Origin: Pseudomonas nunensis
Lineage (GTDB): Bacteria > Pseudomonadota > Gammaproteobacteria > Pseudomonadales > Pseudomonadaceae
Direction: 5' to 3'
NCBI RefSeq assembly: GCF_024296925.1
Contig: NZ_CP101125.1
Location: 1,552,501 to 1,616,500 of the forward strand
DNA: 64,000 nucleotides
In this document: positions 1 through 12,356 of the stretch, in pieces
Position numbering within the stretch: position 1 is the first letter of the stretch
Layout: every line of letters begins with the position of its first letter
Notes under the pieces: generated by a model
What the model saw: the letters and a program-made list of their open reading frames with translations, nothing else
Told to the model about the DNA's origin: nothing
Database searches by the model: none
Program-made: the position numbers and the translations under genes

Positions 1-1224
1 CACGCATCAGCTTCCTTGCCGACGCTGAAATCTGCCGACGCTTCTGTACGTCGCCGATCCCTGATGGCGGGTTGCGGCGCCCACGCCGTTCACGACGGGC
101 TGACCGACGTGATTTATGTGCTGCTGCCAATCTGGCAGGCGCAGTTCGGCTTGAGTTTCGCCCAGATCGGCCTGTTGCGCGGTGCCTATGCCGGGATGAT
201 GGCCGGGTTTCAACTGTTGGCGAGCCGGGCCGCCAAACGTTGGGGGCGCGAGCGCCTGTTGGTGGGCGGCACGGCACTCGCCGGTCTGGCCTATTTGCTG
301 GCGGGGCAGGCGGGCGGGTTGACGGTGTTGTTGCTGGCGTTGCTGTTGGGCGGATTGGGCGCGAGTACCCAGCACCCGCTGGCCTCTTCGTTGATCACCG
401 ATACTCACGAGGCTGGCGGCGGGGTCAAGCAAGCGTTGTCGCAGTACAACTTCTCCGGAGACATCGGCAAAACCTTGATTCCGGGGTTGATCGGTTTGTT
501 GCTGACGGTCATCAGTTGGCGCGCTAGTGTCACGCTGCTCGGCGTGCTCGGGCTGGCCGCCGCAGGATTGTTGTGGTGGCTGATTCCGGCGCGTTCGGAG
601 TCTTTGTCCAGCCAGGGCAAAGCCTCCAAGGCGATCACGGGCAGCGGTTCTGCCGGCGGATTGCGCGCGCTGATTCTGACCGGAACCCTGGACAGCGCGG
701 TGCGCATGGGCTTTCTCACGTTCTTGCCGTTTCTATTGAAAGACAAGGGCGCCGGGACGGCAGGTATCGGCCTGGCGCTGACGATGCTGTTTGTCGGCGG
801 CGCGTTCGGCAAGTTGCTGTGCGGTTATCTGGGCGCGCGCATCGGCATGGTCAAAACCGTGTGGCTGACCGAGTTCACCACCGCAGTATTGATTGTCATG
901 GCGGTGTACCTGCCGTTTCTTGGCCTGATGGTGATGTTGCCGCTTCTGGGCCTGGCGCTTAATGGCACCTCGTCGGTGCTGTACGGTGCGGTGCCGGATC
1001 TGGCGGGACCGGGCAAACGCGAGCAGGCGTTCGCGGTGTTCTACACCGGCACCATTGGCGGTGGAGCGCTGGCGCCGGTGTTATTTGGCAGCCTCGGCGA
1101 CGTCACCGGCGTCCCCATCGCGGTGATCCTGTTGGCGGCCACGCTGTTGCTGACACTGCCGCTGTCCTGGCTGGTGCAACGAGGCCTCGACGCGGATGCG
1201 CGGCTTTATCAGGGCGCGCGTTGA
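1..1224 (+). CDS. MFS transporter, fosmidomycin-resistance (Fsr) type, 5' end uncertain
   Basis: A twelve-helix-type major facilitator protein of about 400 residues. The region before and in TM1 (HAVHDGLTDVIYVLLPIW) and the later segment QHPLASSLITD resemble the Fsr/fosmidomycin-resistance branch of the MFS, which exports drugs at the inner membrane using the proton gradient. The frame is open to base 1. The first start codon inside the window is TTG at 16 and the first ATG is at 64, so the real start may lie outside. It reads in the same direction as the phosphonate-type genes that begin 320 bp later. Fosmidomycin is itself a phosphonate, so a role as exporter or self-resistance pump for that locus is attractive, but it is inferred from context only. 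Confidence 0.85.
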   Translation, partial: HASASLPTLKSADASVRRRSLMAGCGAHAVHDGLTDVIYVLLPIWQAQFGLSFAQIGLLRGAYAGMMAGFQLLASRAAKRWGRERLLVGGTALAGLAYLLAGQAGGLTVLLLALLLGGLGASTQHPLASSLITDTHEAGGGVKQALSQYNFSGDIGKTLIPGLIGLLLTVISWRASVTLLGVLGLAAAGLLWWLIPARSESLSSQGKASKAITGSGSAGGLRALILTGTLDSAVRMGFLTFLPFLLKDKGAGTAGIGLALTMLFVGGAFGKLLCGYLGARIGMVKTVWLTEFTTAVLIVMAVYLPFLGLMVMLPLLGLALNGTSSVLYGAVPDLAGPGKREQAFAVFYTGTIGGGALAPVLFGSLGDVTGVPIAVILLAATLLLTLPLSWLVQRGLDADARLYQGAR

Positions 1225-1544
1225 TCGCCGGGGTTTTCACCCCGTGATGCTATCCCTGAATACCTATTCCATTCTCGCAAGTTGCGGCTGCTGATTTCGC
1301 AGGCGCAATGCTGCGCGGCCGAAGTGCAACTCATCGGCGAAGCTCCCGAAATAACCCAAGTGATGCAGTCCCGGTATTTGTTGTTTTTCCAGTATCAATA
1401 ACGACGTAAACGGTATTGGCCGGTGTTTAAACCGGTGGTCAGAATGTGAGAAGACCCGTTCGGTAAGGTGCCCGGTTTTGCACTTGCAGGAAACTGCATG
1501 TCGCCCGGTCGCCTGGTTTTCAAATCGTTTTCGCAGGTAAAACA
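1225..1544. other. 320-bp intergenic region with candidate operator of the PEP-mutase operon
   Basis: No gene is seen. A short GC stem (CGGGG-TTTTCA-CCCCG, about 1229-1244) just after the MFS stop lacks a T-run and is at best a weak terminator. The rest is the presumed promoter region of the aminotransferase-led operon and holds a 16-bp inverted repeat at 1420-1435. No clear -35/-10 pair could be assigned by eye. Confidence 0.5.
1420..1435. promoter_or_regulatory. Inverted repeat, candidate operator
   Basis: CCGGT-N6-ACCGG lies about 110 bp upstream of the aminotransferase start. It is a possible regulator or repressor site for the phosphonate-type operon. No regulator gene is adjacent within the window, so the assignment is speculative. 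Confidence 0.3.
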
Positions 1545-2774
1545 ATGAATAACAGCAAGACCTCTGCAATCCGATTGTCGTTATCCCATCGTGCGTTGAA
1601 TCTCAGTGCTCCGGGCACTTCCAGCATGCGCAGTAAAGCCAATGCGTTGAAGGAAAAGGGCATCAAAGTCATCAACTTTGCGGCCGGCGAATTATCATTC
1701 GACGCTTGCCAGGAAATGAAAGCAGGCGCCATCCAAGCTATTGAAGGCGCACGCAATCGTTATACCCCGCCGATTGGCTTGCCCCAACTTCGGGAGAAAC
1801 TGGCGCAACAGGTCAGTCAGCGTTGCGGTGTTTCTTACGCCGCCGATGAAGTGGCTGTAACCGCGGGCGCCAAACAGGCGCTGTATAACGCGGCAATGGT
1901 GTTGCTCAATCCCGGTGACGAGGTCATCGTCGCGACGCCTTATTGGGAAACCTTTCCAACGCAAATCCTGCTGGCCGGTGGCATACCAGTGCTGGTCGAT
2001 ACCAGGGCCGATGACTACCGGCTGACCTGCAAGGCCGTCGAAAGAGCCTTGACCCCGCGCACTAAAATGATCGTGATCAACACGCCCAATAACCCGACGG
2101 GCACGGTCTATCAACGGGAACAACTACTGGGGATTGCCCAACTCGCGTTCGATCATCAACTCTGGGTGGTGTTCGACGAGTGTTATCGCAAACTAGTGCG
2201 CGAGCCCCACGAACATCACAACATCGTGTCGCTGTTTCCGGCGCTGAAACAGCAGACCATCCTGGTTGATTCGTTCTCCAAGAGCCAGGCCGTCACCGGG
2301 TGGCGCATAGGTTATGCCTGCGCGCCGGCGCATGTGATCGCGGCCATGCATAACTTGCAAGGGCACACGACGTCCAACCCCAGCAGTCTTTCGCAATATG
2401 CCGCACTGAACACATTGACTGCCGATTCGCCAGACTTTGCCCGCAAGGTAAACACCTTTCTCGATCAACAACTGGTGGCGGCGTGTACGTGTCTTGGTTA
2501 TGTCGACGGCATTACCTGCGCGCCACCAGAAGGTGCGTTTTATCTGTTTGTCGATGTCTCGCGCCATCTGGGTCGCTATTACCTCGGTACAAAGATCCGC
2601 GACGTCGATCATCTCGCCGATTTGTTATTGACCGAAGCGCATATCGCCGTGGTTCCCGGCTCGGGTTGCGGTGATCCCAACAGCATTCGTATTTCGTACG
2701 CCGTCGAGCGTGCAGAGTTGATCGAAGGGCTGACGCGCTTCGGGCAATTCATGTCGGAAGTCGTCGCGGATTGA
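1545..2774 (+). CDS. PLP-dependent aminotransferase (class I/II, aspartate aminotransferase-like)
   Basis: A 409-residue fold-type I aminotransferase. Visible signatures are NNPTG (residues 182-186), the aspartate that pairs with the pyridine nitrogen in FDECY (D211), the Schiff-base lysine in SFSKS (K246) followed by GWRIGY (R254), and a carboxylate-binding arginine near the C-terminus in RISYA. The length matches bacterial AspC/AspB-like enzymes. It is first in a same-strand run with the haem-oxygenase-like, fumarase-like and PEP mutase genes. A likely role, inferred from this company, is amination of phosphonopyruvate (a close analogue of oxaloacetate) to phosphonoalanine. An ordinary aspartate or branched 2-oxoacid transaminase cannot be excluded. 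The SD sequence before the ATG is weak (AGGT). Confidence 0.85.
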   Translation: MNNSKTSAIRLSLSHRALNLSAPGTSSMRSKANALKEKGIKVINFAAGELSFDACQEMKAGAIQAIEGARNRYTPPIGLPQLREKLAQQVSQRCGVSYAADEVAVTAGAKQALYNAAMVLLNPGDEVIVATPYWETFPTQILLAGGIPVLVDTRADDYRLTCKAVERALTPRTKMIVINTPNNPTGTVYQREQLLGIAQLAFDHQLWVVFDECYRKLVREPHEHHNIVSLFPALKQQTILVDSFSKSQAVTGWRIGYACAPAHVIAAMHNLQGHTTSNPSSLSQYAALNTLTADSPDFARKVNTFLDQQLVAACTCLGYVDGITCAPPEGAFYLFVDVSRHLGRYYLGTKIRDVDHLADLLLTEAHIAVVPGSGCGDPNSIRISYAVERAELIEGLTRFGQFMSEVVAD

Positions 2775-2828
2775 CGGCTGTTATTCATCTTGTTGTAGCG
2801 CAGTGACCCACTAAACAAGGAGAACAAT

Positions 2829-3674
2829 GTGGAGAAGTTAAGCCGGAATTTCATCGAGTACGTCAATCAGGCCCTGGTTGATGTCGAGGACAGGAATCTT
2901 GTTGAAGCACTGCTGAGTGGTTTTCACAGCCACCCCGACAAGTTGGATAAATACTGCGAAACCTACGTCGAGATGACGTCCAACAATTGGACCGAGTCTT
3001 CGCTGTGCACGTTCTTTTGTGGCTGGCGCAGCCCCGACGGTGCGGCCCATGCGGTCTCCAGCATTATCGTGCGAATCCTTCAAGAGTCCGAGTCGCTGAC
3101 CGACGATGCCAAGTTGAAGATGCTGGAAGCGGCGCGGCACTGTGGCGAGATCATCATTGAAGATGTGGGCCTGGGTGAAATGCACGGGCATCCGCATCAT
3201 TCGAAGTTGTATTACCGCATGGCGTCGGCCATTTGCGGCTCCGATGACTGGCGTTTGCAGGACCGGTACCTGGACCCGATCACCAAGGAGTTTTCCAGTT
3301 GGGTCGGGGAAACCAGGCCACTGGCACCGAACCTCATCGAAGCCCTTGAAATGATGGCCATGACCGAGCTGTTCAACACCGGGGAATACAACTTGATGAC
3401 CCCGATGTGGAAACAATGGCTGCGCGAGGTTCGGGGTTATCCGTCGGGTGAAGCCAACCGGGTCGCCGCTTTCCTCAGCGTGCATTGCGGCAGCGTCGAG
3501 GCGCGTCATTTCAAGCACGCGGCAGAGGCGTTGAAACTCTACGCCAGCGCGACTCGGCAACCGATCAACTACTTGCGCATCGAGCGTCTGTCCAAGGACT
3601 ACGTGGCCAGGGCCTGCGTGCACCTCGGCAAAATGGCGTCGGTGTTGAAGAGTGAAGTACCTGCCTGGGACTGA
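2829..3674 (+). CDS. Haem-oxygenase-like (putative diiron) protein
   Basis: A 281-residue all-helical protein starting at GTG. An ATG two bases upstream is out of frame and closes after four codons, and AAGGAG at 2816-2821 fits the GTG. Residues 107-124 carry a pattern E-x4-D-x-G-x-G-x7-H, seen as EDVGLG followed by HPHH. It resembles the E/D/H ligand helix of haem-oxygenase-like iron enzymes (the HDO group: UndA, BesC, SznF central domain). Members of that group do oxidative C-C cleavage or N-oxygenation. No signal peptide is present. It lies 54 bp after the aminotransferase and 88 bp before the fumarase-like gene, so co-transcription is likely. The family call rests on motif reading only, and the substrate is unknown. 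Confidence 0.55.
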   Translation: MEKLSRNFIEYVNQALVDVEDRNLVEALLSGFHSHPDKLDKYCETYVEMTSNNWTESSLCTFFCGWRSPDGAAHAVSSIIVRILQESESLTDDAKLKMLEAARHCGEIIIEDVGLGEMHGHPHHSKLYYRMASAICGSDDWRLQDRYLDPITKEFSSWVGETRPLAPNLIEALEMMAMTELFNTGEYNLMTPMWKQWLREVRGYPSGEANRVAAFLSVHCGSVEARHFKHAAEALKLYASATRQPINYLRIERLSKDYVARACVHLGKMASVLKSEVPAWD

Positions 3675-3762
3675 CAGCGACGTCAGGCAACACGGGCCTC
3701 GGGCCATACCTTTCCATGCTGACGGATCCCGCCGTCAGCGGTTTTCTACAGGTTGAATAAAC

Positions 3763-5148
3763 ATGCGTGTCGAGTCTGATTCAATGGGGTCCATCGAGGT
3801 GCCTTCCGACAAGTATTGGGGTGCCCAAACCGAACGCTCCATCCACAATTTCCCGATTGGCCGGGCGCGTTTTCAATGGGGCACGCCGATGATCAAGGCG
3901 ATGGGGATCCTGAAGAAATCCGCAGCACTGGCCAATCTCAAACTGGGTGAATTGCCCGAGTCCATCGCGCTGCCGATTGTCGCGGCGGCGGATGAAGTGA
4001 TTGCGGGGCAGCTCGACGATCACTTTCCCCTGGTGGTGTTCCAGACCGGCTCCGGCACCCAGTCCAACATGAATGCCAACGAAGTCATTTCCAACCGCGC
4101 CATCGAGATGGCCGGCGGTGTCATGGGTAGCAAAGCTCCGGTCCATCCCAATGACCATGTGAATCGCGGGCAATCCTCCAACGATACTTTTCCGACCGCG
4201 ATGTACATAGCGGTGGTCAGCGAGGTCTTCGAAACGCTGCTGCCTGACGTCTCGCTACTGCGCGATACCCTGGGCGAAAAATCGCTGCAGTTTTGCGAAG
4301 TGGTGAAAGTCGGGCGCACCCACTTGCAAGACGCGACGCCGATTACCCTGGGGCAAGAGATCGGCGGCTGGGTCGAGCAGATTGATTATGCGTTGGCGTC
4401 GATTCAGCACAATTTGACCGGCCTCTATGACCTGGCGATCGGCGGCACGGCAGTCGGCACGGGGTTGAACGCCCACCCGTTGTTTGGTGACGAGTGCGCC
4501 AGGGTGATTGCCGAGTTGACCGGTTACCCGTTCAAGTCCTGCGCGAACAAGTTCTTTGCCTTGTCGGCCCACGATGCATTGGTAAACACCTCGGCCGCGA
4601 TCCGCACGCTGGCCATGGCGTTACTCAAGATCGCCAACGATGTGCGCTGGCTGGCCAGCGGACCTCGGTGCGGCATCGGCGAGATCGACATTCCCGAAAA
4701 TGAACCGGGCTCATCCATCATGCCGGGCAAGGTCAACCCGACCCAGTGCGAGGCGCTGACGATGGTCTGCACTCAAGTCTTCGGCAACGATGCGACCGTG
4801 GCTTTCGCCGGCAGCCAGGGCAATTTCCAGCTCAATGTCTATAAGCCGGTGATGGTCCATAACGTGCTGGAGAGCATCACGTTACTGGCGGACGCGTGCC
4901 GGGCCTTCAACGATAACTGCGCGGTTGGCATCGAGCCGAACCTGGGGAAAATTCACGAAAACCTCGAAAAAAACCTGATGTTGGTCACCGCGCTCAATCG
5001 GCATATCGGTTACGACAAGGCGGCCGTCATCGCCAAGACTGCTCATCACAATGGCAAGTCATTGCGGGAGGTGGCAGCGGAGTTGGGTCTGGTTTCCACA
5101 CAGGATTTCGACCGATACGTGGTGCCGCTGGACATGACTCATCCTTGA
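3763..5148 (+). CDS. Class II fumarase paralogue (FumC-like)
   Basis: A 461-residue member of the fumarase/aspartase superfamily. It carries the [14 protein letters not shown] block, the [19 protein letters not shown] block, [10 protein letters not shown] and the mobile signature loop [11 protein letters not shown]. All are of the FumC subtype rather than aspartase, and the length is standard. Housekeeping FumC interconverts fumarate and malate, and pseudomonads usually carry such a gene elsewhere. Placement between a putative diiron oxygenase and PEP mutase suggests a specialised copy. It may act on a phosphonate analogue of malate, aspartate or fumarate, or serve as a product-insensitive resistance isozyme. 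Both roles are inference. All visible catalytic motifs are intact, so it should be an active lyase/hydratase. Confidence 0.88.
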
Positions 5149-5196
5149 TTACTGCGCCGTTGCTCGCCTAATTATAAAAATGGAGCCTGGATTTGT

Positions 5197-6084
5197 ATGG
5201 ATACTGAAACCCGCCGAACCCACCTGGCAACACTGTTCAACAGCAAGCGTTGCCTGCGTGTCCTCGAAGCCCACAGTCCGATATCTGCGTTATTGGCACA
5301 GCGGGCCAAACTTGAAGTGGCTCCGGGGCAAAGCGTGTCGTACGACGCCATTTGGTCGAGTTCGTTGACGGACTCGACCCAGCGCGGCTTGCCGGACATT
5401 GAAATTCTCTCGCCGAGTAACCGGTTGCACGGTATTCGCGAGATTTTTGATGTCTGTTCGATGCCGTTGATTTTCGATGCCGATACCGGCGGCAAGTCCG
5501 AACATTTTGCGATTCATATCAAAATGCTCGAGCGGGCCGGCGTCTCGGCGGTGGTCATCGAAGATAAATGCGGGCTGAAGAAGAACTCGCTGTTCGGCAC
5601 GGCGGTCAGCCAGGAGCAAGAGTCGATCGAAGAGTTCTGCGAAAAGATTCGGGCCGGCTGTGCCAGTCGCGACAGCCAGGGGCTGATGATTATTGCGCGG
5701 TGTGAAAGCCTGATTCTCGACAAGGGCATGGAGGACGCCCTTGAGCGTTGCATGGCGTACGTCGACGCGGGCGCCGACGGCATCATGATTCACAGCCGCA
5801 AAAAGGACGGTCTGGAAATACTCGAGTTTGCCCGGTTGTTCCGTCTGCAATGCCCTCAGGTGCCGCTGATTTGCGTGCCGACCAGCTACTCCCATCTGCG
5901 ATTTGAGGTCTTGGAGAAAGCCGGATTCAATGCGGTGATTTACGCCAATCACATGTTGCGCAGCGCCTATTTGGCGATGCGGGATATTGCCGATGGCATC
6001 CTGGCTAACGGGAGGACTCTGGAAATGGAACCGCGTTGCCTGGGGATCGATGAAATACTCGATCTGGTTCCTGGCACCCGTTAA
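5197..6084 (+). CDS. pepM: Phosphoenolpyruvate mutase (phosphonopyruvate-forming)
   Basis: A 295-residue isocitrate-lyase/PEP-mutase superfamily TIM barrel. It has the mutase-specific signature EDKCGLKKNS (residues 122-131, the EDK-X5-NS motif that separates true PEP mutases from lyases) and the metal/phosphonate pocket FDADTGG (93-99). The enzyme rearranges PEP to 3-phosphonopyruvate, creating a C-P bond. The equilibrium strongly favours PEP, so a pulling second step is needed. No phosphonopyruvate decarboxylase (Ppd) is next to it, and the neighbouring aminotransferase is the best candidate for that step. It is the last gene of the run, 48 bp after the fumarase-like gene, and is closed off by a REP palindrome. 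Residues 1-50 are somewhat longer than in minimal PepM proteins. Identification is firm; the end product is unknown. Confidence 0.92.
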   Translation: MDTETRRTHLATLFNSKRCLRVLEAHSPISALLAQRAKLEVAPGQSVSYDAIWSSSLTDSTQRGLPDIEILSPSNRLHGIREIFDVCSMPLIFDADTGGKSEHFAIHIKMLERAGVSAVVIEDKCGLKKNSLFGTAVSQEQESIEEFCEKIRAGCASRDSQGLMIIARCESLILDKGMEDALERCMAYVDAGADGIMIHSRKKDGLEILEFARLFRLQCPQVPLICVPTSYSHLRFEVLEKAGFNAVIYANHMLRSAYLAMRDIADGILANGRTLEMEPRCLGIDEILDLVPGTR

Positions 6085-6105
6085 GTCGTTTGGACAGCGC
6101 TTCAT

Positions 6106-6222
6106 CCTGTGGCGAGGGGGTTTACCCCCGTTCGAGTGCGCAGCGCTCGCAGCTTTTTTAGGGTCGCTTCGCAACCCAACGGGGGTAAACCCCCTCGCCA
6201 CAGCAAGCTCCCTCGCCACAGG
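6106..6222. repeat. REP/BIME pair (GGCGAGGG type)
   Basis: Two inverted arms of the GTGGCGAGGG-type Pseudomonas REP flank a short spacer. The pair sits between two convergent genes (pepM and the dipeptidase fusion), where it can fold into a long hairpin. A third truncated arm follows at about 6204-6222. Confidence 0.9.
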
Positions 6223-6242
6223 TTGAGTGTCAGGTTGTGGAT

Positions 6243-7649
6243 TTACCGTTCGGGAAGACCCCACCGCTCACGCAGCTGCGCATATTCCGATTCCGGCAAC
6301 TGCACCAGCAACGGCCCCTGATGCGGGTCCAGCCAGCTCAATAGCCGATTGATATTCGCCGGATCCATCGCCGTACACCCCAACGTCCCCGACGTCGGCC
6401 CTCGCCAGATATGCAAGAAAATGCACGAACCTGCACCCGCCACCGCCGGTGTGTTGTGCTCGATGAAAATACCGTTGCGGTACATGTCATCGTCGCGGCG
6501 CATGCGTTCGGAGCTGTTCCAGTCCTTGGTCACCGTGGCCCCGTCGACCAGTTCGTTGTAGCGCTTGGACTGGCCGTCATCCACGCATTCAATGGTCGGG
6601 CTCAGCGGCTGGTAGGGCAGCTTGGTGTCGGCGCTGTTGGCGTAACCGAAGGCTGTACCCAGCTTGAAAATCCCCGCCGGCGCCTTGCCGTCGCCTTCGC
6701 GTTTGACCGGTCCTGTACGTTGCTCGACAACGGTCAGGCCTTTACCCCAGGCCAGTCCGCTTTTACCGACCACCACCGCAAACGGTTCGCCGACTTTTTC
6801 AAAGGTTTGGCCGTGGCGTTCATAGCGTTGGGCGGTGCCCTGGATGTCGGTCCAGTTTTTAGTGGTGACGATGATCAACTGATGACTGTTGCTGAGTTCC
6901 ATCGGGGTAATGGGAAAATCCATCACCTGGTTCAACGCCGGATTGCCGGTGTACGTGAAGTGCCACCACTCTTTCGAATAACCGACAAACCCTTCTTTTT
7001 GCATAGCGCTGGTGAGTCGTTGTCGATTGGCTTTGGCGGTCGCGTTGATCGCCGTGCTGTCGGCGTGTGCCGGCTCGTCGAAGCAGTCGAAACCGGTGCC
7101 CATGTCCAGCGCGCCATCCTGCCAGCGCTGGCCGTACGGAGCGGTGCAATCGACTTGCCTGGCCGAGGCTGACCCAGTGGAGGCGGGCAGGGCATTCGGG
7201 CCGGTCAGGGTCAGGTCCATCGTGCTGCCTTTGGAGTGTCCCGAGACTCGGGCCACATATCCCAGGCGCCAGAAGTCTTGCTTGTCCACGCGGGGATAGA
7301 ATTCGGCTTTGGTCGGATCGCCCGGCACCTTGGCGAAGTTGCCCATGTCGGCGACCGCACGGGCCGGTCGATAGCAGTCGAATACCTTCAACCCGTAGCC
7401 TTGCGCGTGCAGTGCGGTTTGCACTCGGGCCAGGGCCTTGGCCGCGTCCACTGACAACAGGCACTCGGGCGCCTCGTAACCGTCGAGCGGGTGGCCGGTG
7501 AAGTTGTGGGCCGTGGCGTAGCGGATGTCTTGCTGAATGCTCGGGTCAATCGAGCGCAAGTAGACCATGTGCTCGGGCCTGGGCTCGGCGTTCGCCAGGC
7601 ATGGCACGACGACGCACAGGGTGGACAGGATTTTGCTCAGCGTGCCCAT
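6243..7649 (-). CDS. Secreted fusion: VanX-type D-Ala-D-Ala dipeptidase + L,D-transpeptidase-like domain
   Basis: A 468-residue exported protein with a signal peptide of about 21 residues. Residues 25-235 form an M15D (VanX/DdpX-like) domain with CYRP (R94), SGHSKGSTMD (zinc ligands H138 and D145) and EWWH (catalytic E227, ligand H230). Residues 250-465 form a YkuD/COG3786-like L,D-transpeptidase domain with H413 in FLHIW and the nucleophile in SGTLGCTAM (C425). The first activity cleaves D-Ala-D-Ala dipeptides in the periplasm. The second cross-links or exchanges at L,D-bonds of peptidoglycan. Both active sites look complete. The two activities are usually separate genes, which makes the single chain unusual. 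It is convergent with pepM. Confidence 0.85.
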   Translation of the reverse strand: MGTLSKILSTLCVVVPCLANAEPRPEHMVYLRSIDPSIQQDIRYATAHNFTGHPLDGYEAPECLLSVDAAKALARVQTALHAQGYGLKVFDCYRPARAVADMGNFAKVPGDPTKAEFYPRVDKQDFWRLGYVARVSGHSKGSTMDLTLTGPNALPASTGSASARQVDCTAPYGQRWQDGALDMGTGFDCFDEPAHADSTAINATAKANRQRLTSAMQKEGFVGYSKEWWHFTYTGNPALNQVMDFPITPMELSNSHQLIIVTTKNWTDIQGTAQRYERHGQTFEKVGEPFAVVVGKSGLAWGKGLTVVEQRTGPVKREGDGKAPAGIFKLGTAFGYANSADTKLPYQPLSPTIECVDDGQSKRYNELVDGATVTKDWNSSERMRRDDDMYRNGIFIEHNTPAVAGAGSCIFLHIWRGPTSGTLGCTAMDPANINRLLSWLDPHQGPLLVQLPESEYAQLRERWGLPER

Positions 7650-7666
7650 GGCAAGTCTCCAAAAAG

Positions 7667-8182
7667 TCAGGTGCGACGGGCGATGTACACGAGGCTTTGC
7701 GGTTGTCCCGGTACGTCATCGAGCTCACTGAAGCGCTGCATGCCGATTTTCTCCAGCACGCCGATGGAGGCCAGATGACTCGGCCGGACCAACGCAAACA
7801 CCTGCTCGGCCTCCAGTTCTTTGAAGGCATGCGCCAGCGCAGTGGTGCCTAATTCCGTGGCAAAACCCTTGCCCCACGCTGCGGCATCAAACCGATAGCC
7901 GAGGTTGAGGCGCTCGACGTCGAGGTAGTTGTACAACGCAATGCCGCCGAATCCGATGACATGCTCCGGTGCTTCCCGGGCGGCAATCGCCCATTGTCCG
8001 TAGGCGTTTTTGTCCCAGTGGCGGAGCCAGCCGTCGAGCAGGTTTTCAGCTTGATGGATGTCGGTCAGCGGTCCGGCAGGGTTGAATTGATTGGTCGCCG
8101 GGTCGCCGTAGATGGCAAACAGGCGGGCCAGGTCTTCGGCCATCGGTGGCCTTAATATCAATCGCGCGGTGGTTTGTTGCAT
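7667..8182 (-). CDS. GNAT N-acetyltransferase (RimJ/RimL-like)
   Basis: A 171-residue acetyltransferase of the GNAT_3 group that includes RimJ/RimL-type enzymes. It opens with the typical TARLILRPPMAEDLARLF strand and helix. It contains the acetyl-CoA loop region around LGYRFDAAAWGKGFATELG and ends with the late strand VLEKIGMQRF. It would transfer an acetyl group to an amine of a protein N-terminus or small molecule; the substrate cannot be told from sequence. It lies 17 bp upstream of the dipeptidase fusion on the same strand, so the two may be co-transcribed. Confidence 0.85.
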   Translation of the reverse strand: MQQTTARLILRPPMAEDLARLFAIYGDPATNQFNPAGPLTDIHQAENLLDGWLRHWDKNAYGQWAIAAREAPEHVIGFGGIALYNYLDVERLNLGYRFDAAAWGKGFATELGTTALAHAFKELEAEQVFALVRPSHLASIGVLEKIGMQRFSELDDVPGQPQSLVYIARRT

Positions 8183-8503
8183 GGTCCGGTCAGTCCTTGG
8201 TCGGCACAGAAAGCGCCTATTGGGCTAGGGCATCGGTTGGCCCCGAGTGTATCGCCAACACGGAATTGAAGCGCCCGGGCTAACGAGCTTTTTTATCGCT
8301 CCCAAGCATATTTTTAATATTTTTCCTCTGCAGAGGGATGTCGCACTATCGAGCCATACCCCGCGTGGTTCGGCTTTCCCGGATTAAGGCCTGTTACACA
8401 ACGATGTCGGCCCAAGAGCCCGTCACGATGGAACTGTTATTGGTCTCTGGCCAGCACTGCCCGGCTTTACCCTAATTTTAAAAAACAGCTGTGGGAGCGT
8501 TCC
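8183..8503. other. Divergent intergenic region
   Basis: This separates the divergent acetyltransferase and binding-protein genes. It contains a notably AT-rich block near 8288-8330 in an otherwise GC-rich background, which suits a promoter. No repeat or obvious operator was seen. GGGAG about 8 nt before the ATG at 8504 serves as ribosome binding site. Confidence 0.4.
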
Positions 8504-9544
8504 ATGTCTTTATCTTTGCGTACCTGTGTCCCGTTTACCCTGGCCCTGTTGTGCAACAGCGTGTTCGCCGCGCCTCAGGATCTGACCGTCATATCGTTTG
8601 GCGGCGTCACCAAGCAGGCTCAGGACAAAGCCTACTTCCAACCCTTCAACGCCAGCGGCGCCGGGCGCATCGTCGCCGGTGAATACAATGGCGAGTTGTC
8701 GAAAATCAAGGCGATGGTCGATGTCGGTCACACCAGTTGGGACGTGGTCGAGGTCGAAAGCCCGGAGCTGCTGCGCGGTTGTGATGCCGGTTTGTTCGAG
8801 AAACTCGACCCGGCCAGTTTTGGCGACCAGAGCCAGTTCGTGCCGGGGACGTTTACCGAGTGCGGCGTGGCCACTTACGTCTGGTCGATGGTCATGGCGT
8901 TTGACCAGAACAAGCTGACCAAGACCCCATCCTCATGGGCGGATTTCTGGAACGTCAACGACTTCCCAGGCAAGCGCGGCCTGCGCAAAGGCGCCAAGTA
9001 CACCCTGGAAATTGCACTCCTGGCCGATGGCGTCGCGCCGGATCAACTCTACAAAGTGCTGAACACCCCAGAGGGTGTGAGCCGCGCGTTTGCCAAGCTC
9101 GACAAGATCAAGTCGAACATCCAGTGGTGGGAGGCCGGCGCGCAACCGGCGCAGTGGCTGATTGCCGGTGACGTGGTGATGAGCGCCGCCTACAACGGCC
9201 GGATCGCCTCGGCACAGAAAGAGGGCATGAACCTGAGCATCGTCTGGCCGCAAAGCCTCTACGACCCGGAATACTGGGCCGTGGTCAAAGGCACGCCGAA
9301 CAAGGCCCTGGCCGAGCGCTTCATCGCATTCGCCAGCCAGCCGCAGACCCAGAAAGTGTTCTCGGAAAACATCCCTTACGGCCCGGTTCACCGCCAGGCG
9401 CTGGCACTCTTGCCGCCGCAAGTGCAGCAGCAACTGCCGACCGCCGACGCCAACATGGCCAAGGCCCGAGCGGTGGATGCGGAGTTCTGGGTGGATCATG
9501 GCGAGGAGCTGGAAGAACGCTTTAATGCGTGGGCGGCTCGTTAA
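8504..9544 (+). CDS. Periplasmic ABC-transporter substrate-binding protein (PotD/spermidine-putrescine type)
   Basis: A 346-residue extracellular solute-binding protein of the type 2 periplasmic binding fold, with a signal peptide (cleavage near residue 23, CNSVFAAPQ). Segments such as LTVISFGG near the mature start, WDVVEVESPEL, and the hinge region GVATYVWSMVMAF match the PotD/AfuA-like polyamine or ferric-ion binding family. No ABC permease or ATPase genes are adjacent, so it is an orphan binding protein in this window. It may feed a transporter encoded elsewhere or act as a sensor. The ligand is not predictable from sequence. Confidence 0.85.
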   Translation: MSLSLRTCVPFTLALLCNSVFAAPQDLTVISFGGVTKQAQDKAYFQPFNASGAGRIVAGEYNGELSKIKAMVDVGHTSWDVVEVESPELLRGCDAGLFEKLDPASFGDQSQFVPGTFTECGVATYVWSMVMAFDQNKLTKTPSSWADFWNVNDFPGKRGLRKGAKYTLEIALLADGVAPDQLYKVLNTPEGVSRAFAKLDKIKSNIQWWEAGAQPAQWLIAGDVVMSAAYNGRIASAQKEGMNLSIVWPQSLYDPEYWAVVKGTPNKALAERFIAFASQPQTQKVFSENIPYGPVHRQALALLPPQVQQQLPTADANMAKARAVDAEFWVDHGEELEERFNAWAAR

Positions 9545-9559
9545 GCAAACACTGAAAAA

Positions 9560-9673
9560 CCTGTGGCGAGAGGGCTTTTGTGGCGAGGGAGCTTGCTCCC
9601 GCTGGAGTGCGCAGCAGTCCCTTCTTTGGGGGCCGCTTCGCAGCCCAGCGGGAGCAAGCTCCCTCGCCACAGG
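9560..9673. repeat. REP/BIME pair (GGCGAGGG type)
   Basis: Two inverted GGGAGCTTGCTCCC-type arms with a half-copy in front lie between the convergent binding-protein and DHA2 exporter genes. Confidence 0.9.
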
Positions 9674-9679
9674 TCGGTG

Positions 9680-11059
9680 TTATGCCTTGGGCGCCACCAA
9701 CCGCAACGCACTCGCCACACTCCCCACCGCCGCAAAGCCCGCACCAATGCTCAGCGCCAGCACCGGGCCGTGGGTGCCCGACATGCCGAAGCTCAACGCC
9801 ACCAATGCAGCGCCGGTCGCCTGGCCGATCAGCCGGGCCATGGCGATGGTGCCGCTGGCGCCGCTGCTGCGTTCGCGTGGGGCGCTGGTCATCAGGGCTT
9901 TCTGGTTCGGGGCCTGGAAGAAGCCGAACCCAATCCCGCAGATGATCATGCGAATCACGATCCCGGTGGCACTGAGATCTGCCGGCATGATCGCCAGGGA
10001 CACCATCCCCGCGCTGAGAATCGCAAGGCCGATACCGCCAAGCAGGCCCGGCGGATAGGTATCGGACAAACGCCCGGCCATCGGTGCGATCAGCGCCACG
10101 ACGATGGACCATGGGGTCATCAGGAAACCGGTCTGGATCGGATCGCGGCCCAGGGTGGTTTCGAAGAAGAAGGGCAGCGAGACGAACGCCAACCCTTGAG
10201 TCGCGAAGGAGCAGAACGCAGTCAGCGTCGACAGGGCAAACATCGGGCGCTTGAGCAAATCCAGAGGAAACATCGGTGCCGGATGCCCGGCTTCACGGCG
10301 CAACATCAGCGCTCCGGCGATCAGGAACACCGCCAGGGCGATCACCACACTACTCATCGAGCCCAGTTGCGCGGCCTGACTCAGCGCGAAAATCAACGCA
10401 CCGAAAGTGATGACGTTGAGCACAGCGGTCAGCCGGTCAAACACGACGGCTTTGGGCTGGCTGGTCGGCAAGGAGCTCCAGGCGAAGCTCAGGGCAAACA
10501 ACCCAAGGGGCAGGTTGATCGCAAACAGCCAGGGCCAATTGGCCACCGACAGCACCAGCGAGGCGATGGTCGGGCCGGCGGCGAAGCAGGTGCCGACCAC
10601 CAGCGCGTTCAGCCCCAGGCCACGGCCCATACGTTCCGGCGGGAAGATCAAACCGATCAGTGCGGCGTTCACGCTCATGATCGCACTGGCCCCGACGCCC
10701 TGGAGCACGCGCGCCACGGTCAGGGTCGGCAGCGACCACGCGAGCGCGCACAACCCCGACGCCACCACGAACAGGATGATGCCGCTGAGGAACACTTTGC
10801 GGTGCCCGATGATACCGCCCAGCGCGGCGAACGGCAGCAGCGTGGCCACGGCCGCCAGTTGGTAGGCGTTGATAATCCACACCGAGGCGGCGGGGGAGGC
10901 GTTGAGGTCTGCGGCAATAGTCGGGAGCGCGGTGTTGGCGATGGCGGTGTCGAGTACCGCCAGGGCAATCGACACCAGAATCGCCACCAGCCCGCGCAGT
11001 TCACGGGGGGTGAGTTTGCCGGGTGCGGCGGTCGGGAGCTGCGAGGCGGGCTGAGTCAT
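9680..11059 (-). CDS. MFS multidrug exporter, DHA2/EmrB-QacA family
   Basis: A 459-residue, fourteen-helix-type MFS pump. The TM1 motif LDTAIANTALPTIAADL (motif D1 of DHA2 exporters), the helix 2/3 loop GGIIGHRKVFL (motif A) and RVLQGVGASAIM (motif C region) are clear. It would export drugs or toxic metabolites by proton antiport. No membrane-fusion partner (EmrA-like) is adjacent, so it probably acts alone in the inner membrane. The substrate is unknown. Confidence 0.88.
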   Translation of the reverse strand: MTQPASQLPTAAPGKLTPRELRGLVAILVSIALAVLDTAIANTALPTIAADLNASPAASVWIINAYQLAAVATLLPFAALGGIIGHRKVFLSGIILFVVASGLCALAWSLPTLTVARVLQGVGASAIMSVNAALIGLIFPPERMGRGLGLNALVVGTCFAAGPTIASLVLSVANWPWLFAINLPLGLFALSFAWSSLPTSQPKAVVFDRLTAVLNVITFGALIFALSQAAQLGSMSSVVIALAVFLIAGALMLRREAGHPAPMFPLDLLKRPMFALSTLTAFCSFATQGLAFVSLPFFFETTLGRDPIQTGFLMTPWSIVVALIAPMAGRLSDTYPPGLLGGIGLAILSAGMVSLAIMPADLSATGIVIRMIICGIGFGFFQAPNQKALMTSAPRERSSGASGTIAMARLIGQATGAALVALSFGMSGTHGPVLALSIGAGFAAVGSVASALRLVAPKA

Positions 11060-11174
11060 GCGTTGCGACCGCCCAAGGCAAGGAGTGAAAGACGGATCAT
11101 GCTGATTCCCCGTGTGCAGGCGTTGCGCAAGGGCCTCACTCTACCTAAATCCGTGGACGGTTCGCGAGCCTGAC

Positions 11175-12035
11175 TTACTTCGCGCCGAACAGCATCGTCC
11201 AGTACACGCCCTCGTCGCTGCGTGCATCGGTGGCGAAGGCTGCGCCGACCTGGGTGAACATCGGGTTCATCAGGTTGGCGCAGTGCCCGGGGCTGGCGAG
11301 CCATCCGGCCATCGCCTTGCTCGGTGAACTCTGGCCAGCGGCGATGTTTTCGCCGATCTGCCGACCACGGAAACCCGCCGCCCTGGCGCGGTCCGCCGGC
11401 ATTTCACCGTCGGGGTCCTGATGCGCAAAGTAGTTGCCGTAGGCCATGTCCTTGCTGTGACCTTGCGCGGCGGCGCCCAACGCGGCGTTCCAGCTCAATG
11501 GCCGGGCGGCGGCGAAGCGTCGGCCGCCACACATCCGCGACTTTGCCCGTGCTGCGTTGACTTCGGCCAGCAACGTTTTGTTGGCTGATCGGGTGTCGCT
11601 GACCTGATTGTCGAGCACCGGCCGCGCCAGCACGATTTGCCATTCGCTGCGGGCGCGACTGATGCCGATGTCGGCGTACTGCGCATCGAGCAGCGCGCCG
11701 CAGTAGTTGTCCTGCAACTCATCGAAGGCGTCCTCGGCATCCCGCGCGCCGACCAGGCGGATCGTGCGCACGGTCACCGCTTGATAACCGTTCTGCTTCA
11801 AACCCTCGCGCAAGGCCCCGCCATAACCGAGCGGCAGCGCCAGATTCGACTTCAGCACCAAGGGTTTCAAGCCCTGAACCGGGCGTATCGAACAGCCCCG
11901 AGGGTGGGCGCGGTAATTGTTGATCTCCGACACCAGCTGCCGTTCCTCGCTGGCGTGGGCGGGCGTGGCGAACAGGGGGAATAACGGGAAAAAACAGAGC
12001 GAAACAACGCGAAAAGACAAGGCGATCTGGCGCAT
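11175..12035 (-). CDS. Secreted CAP/SCP-domain protein (YkwD-like)
   Basis: A 286-residue exported protein with a signal peptide ending near the HASEE motif. The C-terminal half (about 145-286) is a bacterial CAP domain with the typical blocks GHSKDMAYGNYFAHQDPDG, GENIAAG and GHCANLMNP. The two histidines (in the GHSKDM and YFAHQD blocks) and the glutamate of GENIA form the usual CAP cavity. The N-terminal half (about 30-140) has its own LVSEINNYR start and looks like a second, degenerate CAP-like repeat (compare LVSEINNYRAH with LLAEVNAAR). The function of bacterial CAP proteins is poorly known; envelope or secreted roles are usual. Confidence 0.85.
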   Translation of the reverse strand: MRQIALSFRVVSLCFFPLFPLFATPAHASEERQLVSEINNYRAHPRGCSIRPVQGLKPLVLKSNLALPLGYGGALREGLKQNGYQAVTVRTIRLVGARDAEDAFDELQDNYCGALLDAQYADIGISRARSEWQIVLARPVLDNQVSDTRSANKTLLAEVNAARAKSRMCGGRRFAAARPLSWNAALGAAAQGHSKDMAYGNYFAHQDPDGEMPADRARAAGFRGRQIGENIAAGQSSPSKAMAGWLASPGHCANLMNPMFTQVGAAFATDARSDEGVYWTMLFGAK

Positions 12036-12220
12036 GAGGCGAACGGCTCTGATGAGATGAAGACGGTACTGACGACCATGGGGCCGAGGGAGCGCTAGTC
12101 GTTTGGGCGGACGAGCGCATTTCAGGGCAGGTCTAAGACTGCGGGTTTTAAATCTGGTTCATGGGAGGGGAAGGCAAATTTTGGGTGGGGGGTATCCGCA
12201 ATTATTTACCCATCGCCGAT

Positions 12221-12316
12221 CCCCTGTGGGAGCGGGCTTGCTCGCGAAGGCGGAGTGACAGGCAACAAAAGTGTTGAATGTGATGGCCCCTTCGCGGGCA
12301 AGCCTCGCTCCTACAG
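12221..12316. repeat. REP pair (GGGAGCGGGCTTGCTCGCG type)
   Basis: A plus-oriented REP arm and an inverted, slightly diverged arm (CGCGGGCAAGCCTCGCTCCTAC) are separated by about 40 bp. Confidence 0.9.
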
Positions 12317-12356
12317 TTGATCGGGGTCGATCAGGAATGTTGTGCCTGCCGCAGAT

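Follow-up and report, generated by a model that had tools for sequence, protein, structure and literature searches.

What does a bacterium make with an operon that encodes a phosphoenolpyruvate (PEP) mutase, PepM, beside an aspartate-type aminotransferase (AT), a haem-oxygenase-like dimetal oxidase/oxygenase (HDO), here HDO1, and a class II fumarase, FumC? We analysed such a locus in a 64,000-nucleotide stretch of the Pseudomonas nunensis genome (hereafter the window; G000:C1:1552501-1616500, the genome G000 being a single contig of 7.33 Mb). The answer that we favour, with a probability of about 0.58, is that the cluster makes a small, exported phosphonate antimetabolite by a pathway of PepM, AT and HDO1, and that FumC is protective. 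The genes concerned are the following, together with that of a predicted major facilitator superfamily (MFS) transporter, MFS2, which we propose as a candidate exporter.

1..1224, + strand: MFS2, transporter (PF07690), whose start lies 14 bases 5' of the window (L006 17486-18724)
1545..2774, + strand: AT, class I aspartate-type aminotransferase (PF00155; aspartate aminotransferase structures)
2829..3674, + strand: HDO1, with a GTG start (AlphaFold2 model, structure matches)
3763..5148, + strand: FumC, class II fumarase (TIGR00979, 720.6 bits)
5197..6084, + strand: PepM, PEP mutase (TIGR02320, 416.7 bits; EDKX5NS)

A preliminary description of this DNA had placed the four enzyme genes in one run. 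They are indeed four intact, co-directional open frames, all on the + strand, separated by 54 (AT-HDO1), 88 (HDO1-FumC) and 48 bases (FumC-PepM). The window opens inside a larger cluster: genes for a LysR regulator, a first transporter (MFS1), a second HDO-like protein (HDO2) and MFS2 lie upstream, partly outside it (L006 14356-18724). The LysR gene is divergent from the rest, and the LysR and MFS families were assigned by family match. A convergent VanX/L,D-transpeptidase-like gene lies downstream of PepM.

Conservation and identity of the three core enzymes

A scan of Genome Taxonomy Database (GTDB) species genomes yielded 21 HDO1 loci, 19 in Pseudomonas, one in Citrobacter youngae and one in Roseateles depolymerans. 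AT is present in all 21, MFS2 and PepM in 19 each, LysR, MFS1 and HDO2 in 17 each, and FumC in 8; AT, HDO1 and PepM stand together in 19 loci, across the three genera. The co-conservation test suggested with the preliminary description thus upholds the trio of AT, HDO1 and PepM and fails for FumC. Nor is there a fixed four-gene set, as had been supposed, since the smallest cluster, that of Citrobacter (L022), consists of MFS2-AT-HDO1-PepM; neither HDO2 nor a cluster-type FumC was found in that genome. MFS1 and HDO2 accompany the cluster in Pseudomonas, not in Citrobacter or Roseateles. In a genus sample of 398 genomes (raw counts, not corrected for kinship; PepM counted at 60% identity or more and HDO2 at 75% or more, HDO1 through the HDO2 query, which recovers it at E <= 7e-28), HDO1 occurs in 19 genomes and a matching PepM in 19, 18 of them shared with HDO1. 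Cluster-type FumC occurs in 10 (9 shared) and HDO2 in 27 (19 shared).

PepM was described from the outset as a true PEP mutase, and this stands. It passes the cut-off of the PEP mutase equivalog TIGR02320 (319.55), falls below that of the hydrolase family TIGR02321 (149.4 against 374.4) and likewise fails the lyase models. EDKX5NS, which we take to be the diagnostic signature of PEP mutase, is conserved in all 19 PepM proteins found across the 21 loci. The Roseateles protein is a divergent one, with 35% identity, and its TIGR02320 score of 307.7 lies just under the cut-off. By its family, PepM is expected to convert PEP to phosphonopyruvate. Three other Pseudomonas PepM loci (L102, L151 and L152) carry an HMGL-like, homocitrate-synthase-type gene, and in a further locus (L154 in G212, 3587-12341) a PepM-like protein (35%) sits amid open reading frames (ORFs) that appear, by eye, dehydrogenase-like and aminotransferase-like.

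The closest solved structures of AT are aspartate aminotransferases (AspAT). Its GAKQ lysine, which in the Thermus enzyme recognises an acidic side chain, is kept in 20 of the 21 loci, the exception being L012, which is without PepM. Among 34 genomes examined, this AT type is present in all 19 with a matching PepM and in G315. One locus (L101 in G165, 6630-11121) encodes an MFS protein, PepM (62%), AT (55%) and a nucleotidyltransferase, without HDO1, and possibly serves surface phosphonoalanine tailoring; since AT and PepM are paired there in the absence of HDO1, AT appears to go with PepM itself. AT is an AspAT-superfamily pyridoxal phosphate (PLP) enzyme tied to pepM, as is PnaA, to which we likened it by family and description. 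PnaA, an AspAT-like PLP enzyme, converts phosphonopyruvate to phosphonoalanine and serves as the PepM-coupling step (PMC11867202), and aminotransferases are named among the usual second steps after PepM (PMC12871164). Family, co-occurrence and this precedent suggest that AT most likely transaminates phosphonopyruvate to phosphonoalanine, and is the second step. The aspartate-type aminotransferase of the preliminary description is therefore retained, by analogy able to make phosphonoalanine from phosphonopyruvate; its statement that a classical second-step enzyme is missing is not, transamination being a published way of coupling PepM (PMC11867202).

Neither HDO1 nor HDO2 is matched by any Pfam or NCBIfam model. 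The AlphaFold2 model of HDO1, built on a 23-sequence alignment, is confident and displays the seven-helix haem-oxygenase fold of the HDO superfamily. Its structural neighbours include CADD, UndA, HrmI, PolF, RohS and BesC, and also TenA and PqqC relatives, which share this fold; the Foldseek search by itself gave a best E of 1.1e-3. HDO2, about 30% identical to HDO1, was modelled in the same fold with equal confidence. E111, D112, H124, E180, H219, E224 and H227 are kept in at least 90% of 28 HDO1 and HDO2 proteins, the spacing from H219 to E224 being one longer than the one we assume for CADD. From their pattern, these residues are candidate ligands that fit the three-histidine, three-carboxylate arrangement described for HDOs (PMC13108848). 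HDO1 thus shares fold and candidate ligands with UndA, CADD, HrmI, PolF, RohS, BesC and AetD, at 8-14% identity over the structural matches. The model points to HDO1 as a probable O2-activating diiron enzyme, and the composition of the smallest cluster suggests that it oxidises phosphonoalanine; family and fold make it a plausible oxidase of that compound, in keeping with the initial idea that the diiron protein may oxidise the amine. We found no paper on the oxidation of phosphonoalanine by an HDO in the open-licence literature, and the string 'phosphon' is absent from the main text of the HDO review PMC13108848. An HDO-like protein with 30% identity to HDO1 is also encoded on plasmid pAB510c of Azospirillum sp. 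B510 (L147, 7157-12425), with GntR and MFS genes, beside malate synthase G.

Role of the fumarase

FumC passes the cut-off of the class II fumarase equivalog TIGR00979 (664.75), and what we take to be its catalytic motifs are retained in an alignment to solved fumarases. The cluster proteins are at least 71% identical among 20 copies (14 distinct) and at most 60% identical to the other FumC proteins examined in such genomes (19 proteins), from which they differ by 13 fixed differences, all outside the catalytic motifs and one immediately before a motif. All 23 genomes examined contain at least one other FumC copy, with 44-58% identity to that of the window; in G000 there are two further FumC-like genes, at 56% and 44%, and one more at 38%. 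FumC is missing in 13 of the 21 loci, 11 of which carry PepM, AT and HDO1. Its presence on the AT+HDO1 tree takes three changes (bootstrap range 2-3; root arbitrary), possibly one gain with two losses. In L010, a close relative, the last 14 residues of FumC survive after HDO1, and in L007, the closest relative, 16 bases from the end of FumC adjoin the FumC-PepM spacer. These scars of the end of the gene show that FumC was deleted in both.

The converse arrangement was found in one genome, G354, whose locus has LysR and MFS1, then an AMP-binding ORF, then an intact FumC (92%). HDO2, MFS2, AT, HDO1 and PepM are absent from this locus, and the rest of the genome gave no AT, PepM or HDO match at the thresholds applied. 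A locus that has the regulator, transporter and target but not the biosynthetic genes is what one would expect of an immunity remnant. FumC is canonical, additional, missing from most clusters and kept in G354; it is therefore probably an extra self-resistance copy and not a pathway enzyme. The pathway role that the preliminary description had given it sits poorly with both its absence from 13 loci and its retention in G354. As with a duplicated target, it is an extra copy beside housekeeping genes and dispensable to part of the clusters of its type. Self-resistance by FumC would make the product a fumarase-directed phosphonate antimetabolite.

Proposed pathway and competing explanations

In the LysR-associated cluster that we propose, PepM would catalyse the unfavourable step from PEP to phosphonopyruvate, an analogue of oxaloacetate, and AT would pull it by forming L-phosphonoalanine, an analogue of aspartate. 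HDO1 would oxidise L-phosphonoalanine to the active product and MFS2 would export it, so that the three enzymes and MFS2 would make up the smallest cluster. The product would inhibit fumarase, and FumC would be a working extra fumarase that shields the producer. Because HDOs carry out N-oxygenation, C-C cleavage, desaturation and C-N ring closure (PMC13108848, PMC12614342), the sequence does not tell which compound is formed. An immunity role of FumC would call for a product similar to fumarate, malate or their carbanion; either a nitro compound or a phosphonoaziridine would fit this description. A long shot is that HDO1 closes the amino nitrogen onto C3, in which case 3-phosphonoaziridine-2-carboxylate would block fumarase (and aspartase) and FumC would serve as a fumarase reserve. 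This compound would be the phosphonate counterpart of S-2,3-dicarboxyaziridine, and an aza relative of fosfomycin too; dicarboxyaziridine inhibits fumarase. It is also an aspartase inhibitor, according to a title cited in PMC5943925, and among the several products that the HDO PolF makes from valine is an aziridine (PMC12614342). A nitro compound or oxime made by N-oxygenation, or 2-aminovinyl- or 2-nitroethylphosphonate after decarboxylation, are equally open.

Several observations weigh against the antimetabolite pathway and the protective role of FumC. With the catalytic motifs unchanged, no resistance change is identified in FumC, and because most clusters lack the gene, their producers would need other protection, such as export or other fumarases. 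G354 is a single genome, its former possession of the lost genes is presumed, and the dN/dS of its FumC against the window copy (0.065) spans time before any loss. FumC is present in the most distant locus, that of Roseateles (L027), which fits a pathway role too. HDO2, which accompanies HDO1 in all 19 genomes of the Pseudomonas sample that have the latter, is unexplained by a three-enzyme pathway. Lastly, L010 and L012/G315 retain AT and HDO1 without PepM, so that the substrate of HDO1 could differ, and the dN/dS of AT is not raised after the loss of PepM in L012 (0.098 versus 0.100). Some of these points would suit a FumC that acts after AT and HDO1, adding water or an amine to, or removing it from, a phosphonate that is analogous to fumarate or malate. 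Such a role agrees with the position of the gene between HDO1 and PepM, its own sequence group, its presence in Roseateles and the genus sample, in which 9 of the 10 genomes with cluster-type FumC also carry the PepM cluster. We nevertheless judge that role unlikely, given the many loci with PepM, AT and HDO1 that lack FumC, its unchanged catalytic motifs, and its persistence in G354, a genome that yielded no biosynthetic gene.

The loci without PepM would be explained if AT and HDO1 worked on a non-phosphonate amino acid and PepM had a separate purpose. We consider this quite unlikely. In L012, a single lineage, the GAKQ, SFSK..TGWR and RISYA motifs of AT are altered (AT of L025 and L026 also lacks the RISYA pattern, although PepM is present), and the dN/dS of HDO1 against L011 is about twice that of the sister L008 (0.070 versus 0.037), while that of HDO2, LysR and MFS1 is not raised. 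In L010, PepM and FumC are gone and the FumC tail is still there, which indicates a recent loss. In G257 (L064) the core is deleted, 37 residues of the PepM end remaining beside MFS2, and LysR-MFS1-HDO2 is retained; these patterns make AT-HDO1-PepM look like one unit and LysR-MFS1-HDO2 another. A catabolic locus, in which AT would turn imported phosphonoalanine to phosphonopyruvate and PepM would run in reverse to PEP, agrees with an equilibrium of PepM that favours PEP (PMC12871164) and with the reversibility of transamination (PMC11867202). Phosphonoalanine catabolism by PalA likewise pairs an aminotransferase with a PepM-superfamily enzyme. However, the genus has a recognisable locus of this kind (L153 in G175, 1417-7285), with ABC importer parts, an aminotransferase and a phosphonopyruvate hydrolase at 576 bits, whereas the window holds a TIGR02320 PepM, two predicted MFS transporters and an O2-dependent enzyme type. 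We rejected a PalA-type hydrolase locus, since PepM fails TIGR02321, and regard a catabolic role as very improbable. Least credible to us is that phosphonoalanine or a derivative is made for a cell-surface polymer and not as a diffusible product: the same PepM-AT pair does occur with a nucleotidyltransferase in L101/G165, and nucleotidyltransferases are linked to surface phosphonates (PMC6697681), but none was seen beside HDO1 in L010, L012, L022 or L027 by eye, no family search having been made.

A separate arrangement of LysR-MFS1-HDO2 was noted in L058, L059, L060, L062, L063, L065 and L068, with an aminotransferase (about 30% to AT) some 4.5 kb away. No window-type AT, HDO1 or PepM was found in these stretches; the genome of L068 has them elsewhere. 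The intervening genes of L058 encode an ATP-grasp protein, an HMGL/DmpG-type aldolase and an acetaldehyde dehydrogenase, with a FAD/NAD protein beyond.

Spacer features and relation to known systems

The spacers of the cluster contain the following further features.

1264..1360 (ends approximate), - strand: remnant of a LysR N-terminus in the MFS2-AT spacer (by eye, ORF 1264-1569 (-))
3717..3740, + strand: terminator-like hairpin with a T-run in the HDO1-FumC spacer (hairpin scan, weak)
6133..6149, + strand: hairpin then T-run after PepM (hairpin scan, not above shuffle expectation)

The MFS2-AT spacer thus holds the probable start of a decayed second LysR regulator; in L017 and L020 a whole second LysR-like ORF lies between MFS2 and AT. 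A stretch resembling, by eye, the HDO1-FumC hairpin region precedes FumC in L142, and the hairpin after PepM is possibly the end of the transcript. Evidence from hairpins is weak, as the region holds five such sites with a T-run and shuffled sequences predict 6.0, no excess. A long imperfect inverted repeat after PepM (6110-6210) resembles by eye one that follows HDO1 in L010 and may be a repeat element.

A close known parallel to the early steps is the phosphonoalamide pathway of Streptomyces (PnaD/PnaA), in which PepM is likewise followed by an AspAT-like PLP enzyme that yields phosphonoalanine (PMC11867202). There, ATP-grasp ligases build tripeptides; the genes of the window cluster yielded no ligase and instead encode an HDO and a fumarase that is optional in clusters of this type. 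The flavophos cluster (bsf) of Burkholderia likewise combines phosphonate genes with a duplicate housekeeping enzyme, the lumazine synthase BsfB, which is dispensable for production and protects the producer (PMC12871164); its second step, 2-phosphonomethylmalate synthesis, and its duplicated target differ from ours. Fosfomycin of pseudomonads, pantaphos and FR-900098 also start from PepM and use a homocitrate-synthase-like second enzyme (PMC12871164). We rejected this type of cluster for the window, since no HMGL-like 2-phosphonomethylmalate synthase was matched among the 8 proteins of window 16-9541 or in LysR, MFS1, HDO2 and MFS2.

In the open-licence literature, which leaves subscription papers and the Halophos gene list outside its scope, we found neither the PepM-AT-HDO combination nor a fumarase as a self-resistance gene. 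The preliminary view of an undescribed pathway holds to that extent, although the early steps are known chemistry; as far as found, this is a phosphonoalanine-branch cluster with a tailoring enzyme that is new and a target that may be new. If our reading is true, this would be the first phosphonate pathway, as far as found, to take phosphonoalanine through a haem-oxygenase-like diiron enzyme, one that could be rebuilt with just three enzymes, and with it come two HDO families that neither Pfam nor NCBIfam lists. To our knowledge, natural fumarase inhibitors are few. The embedded fumarase would name the likely target beforehand, so that the activity of the product would be directly testable.

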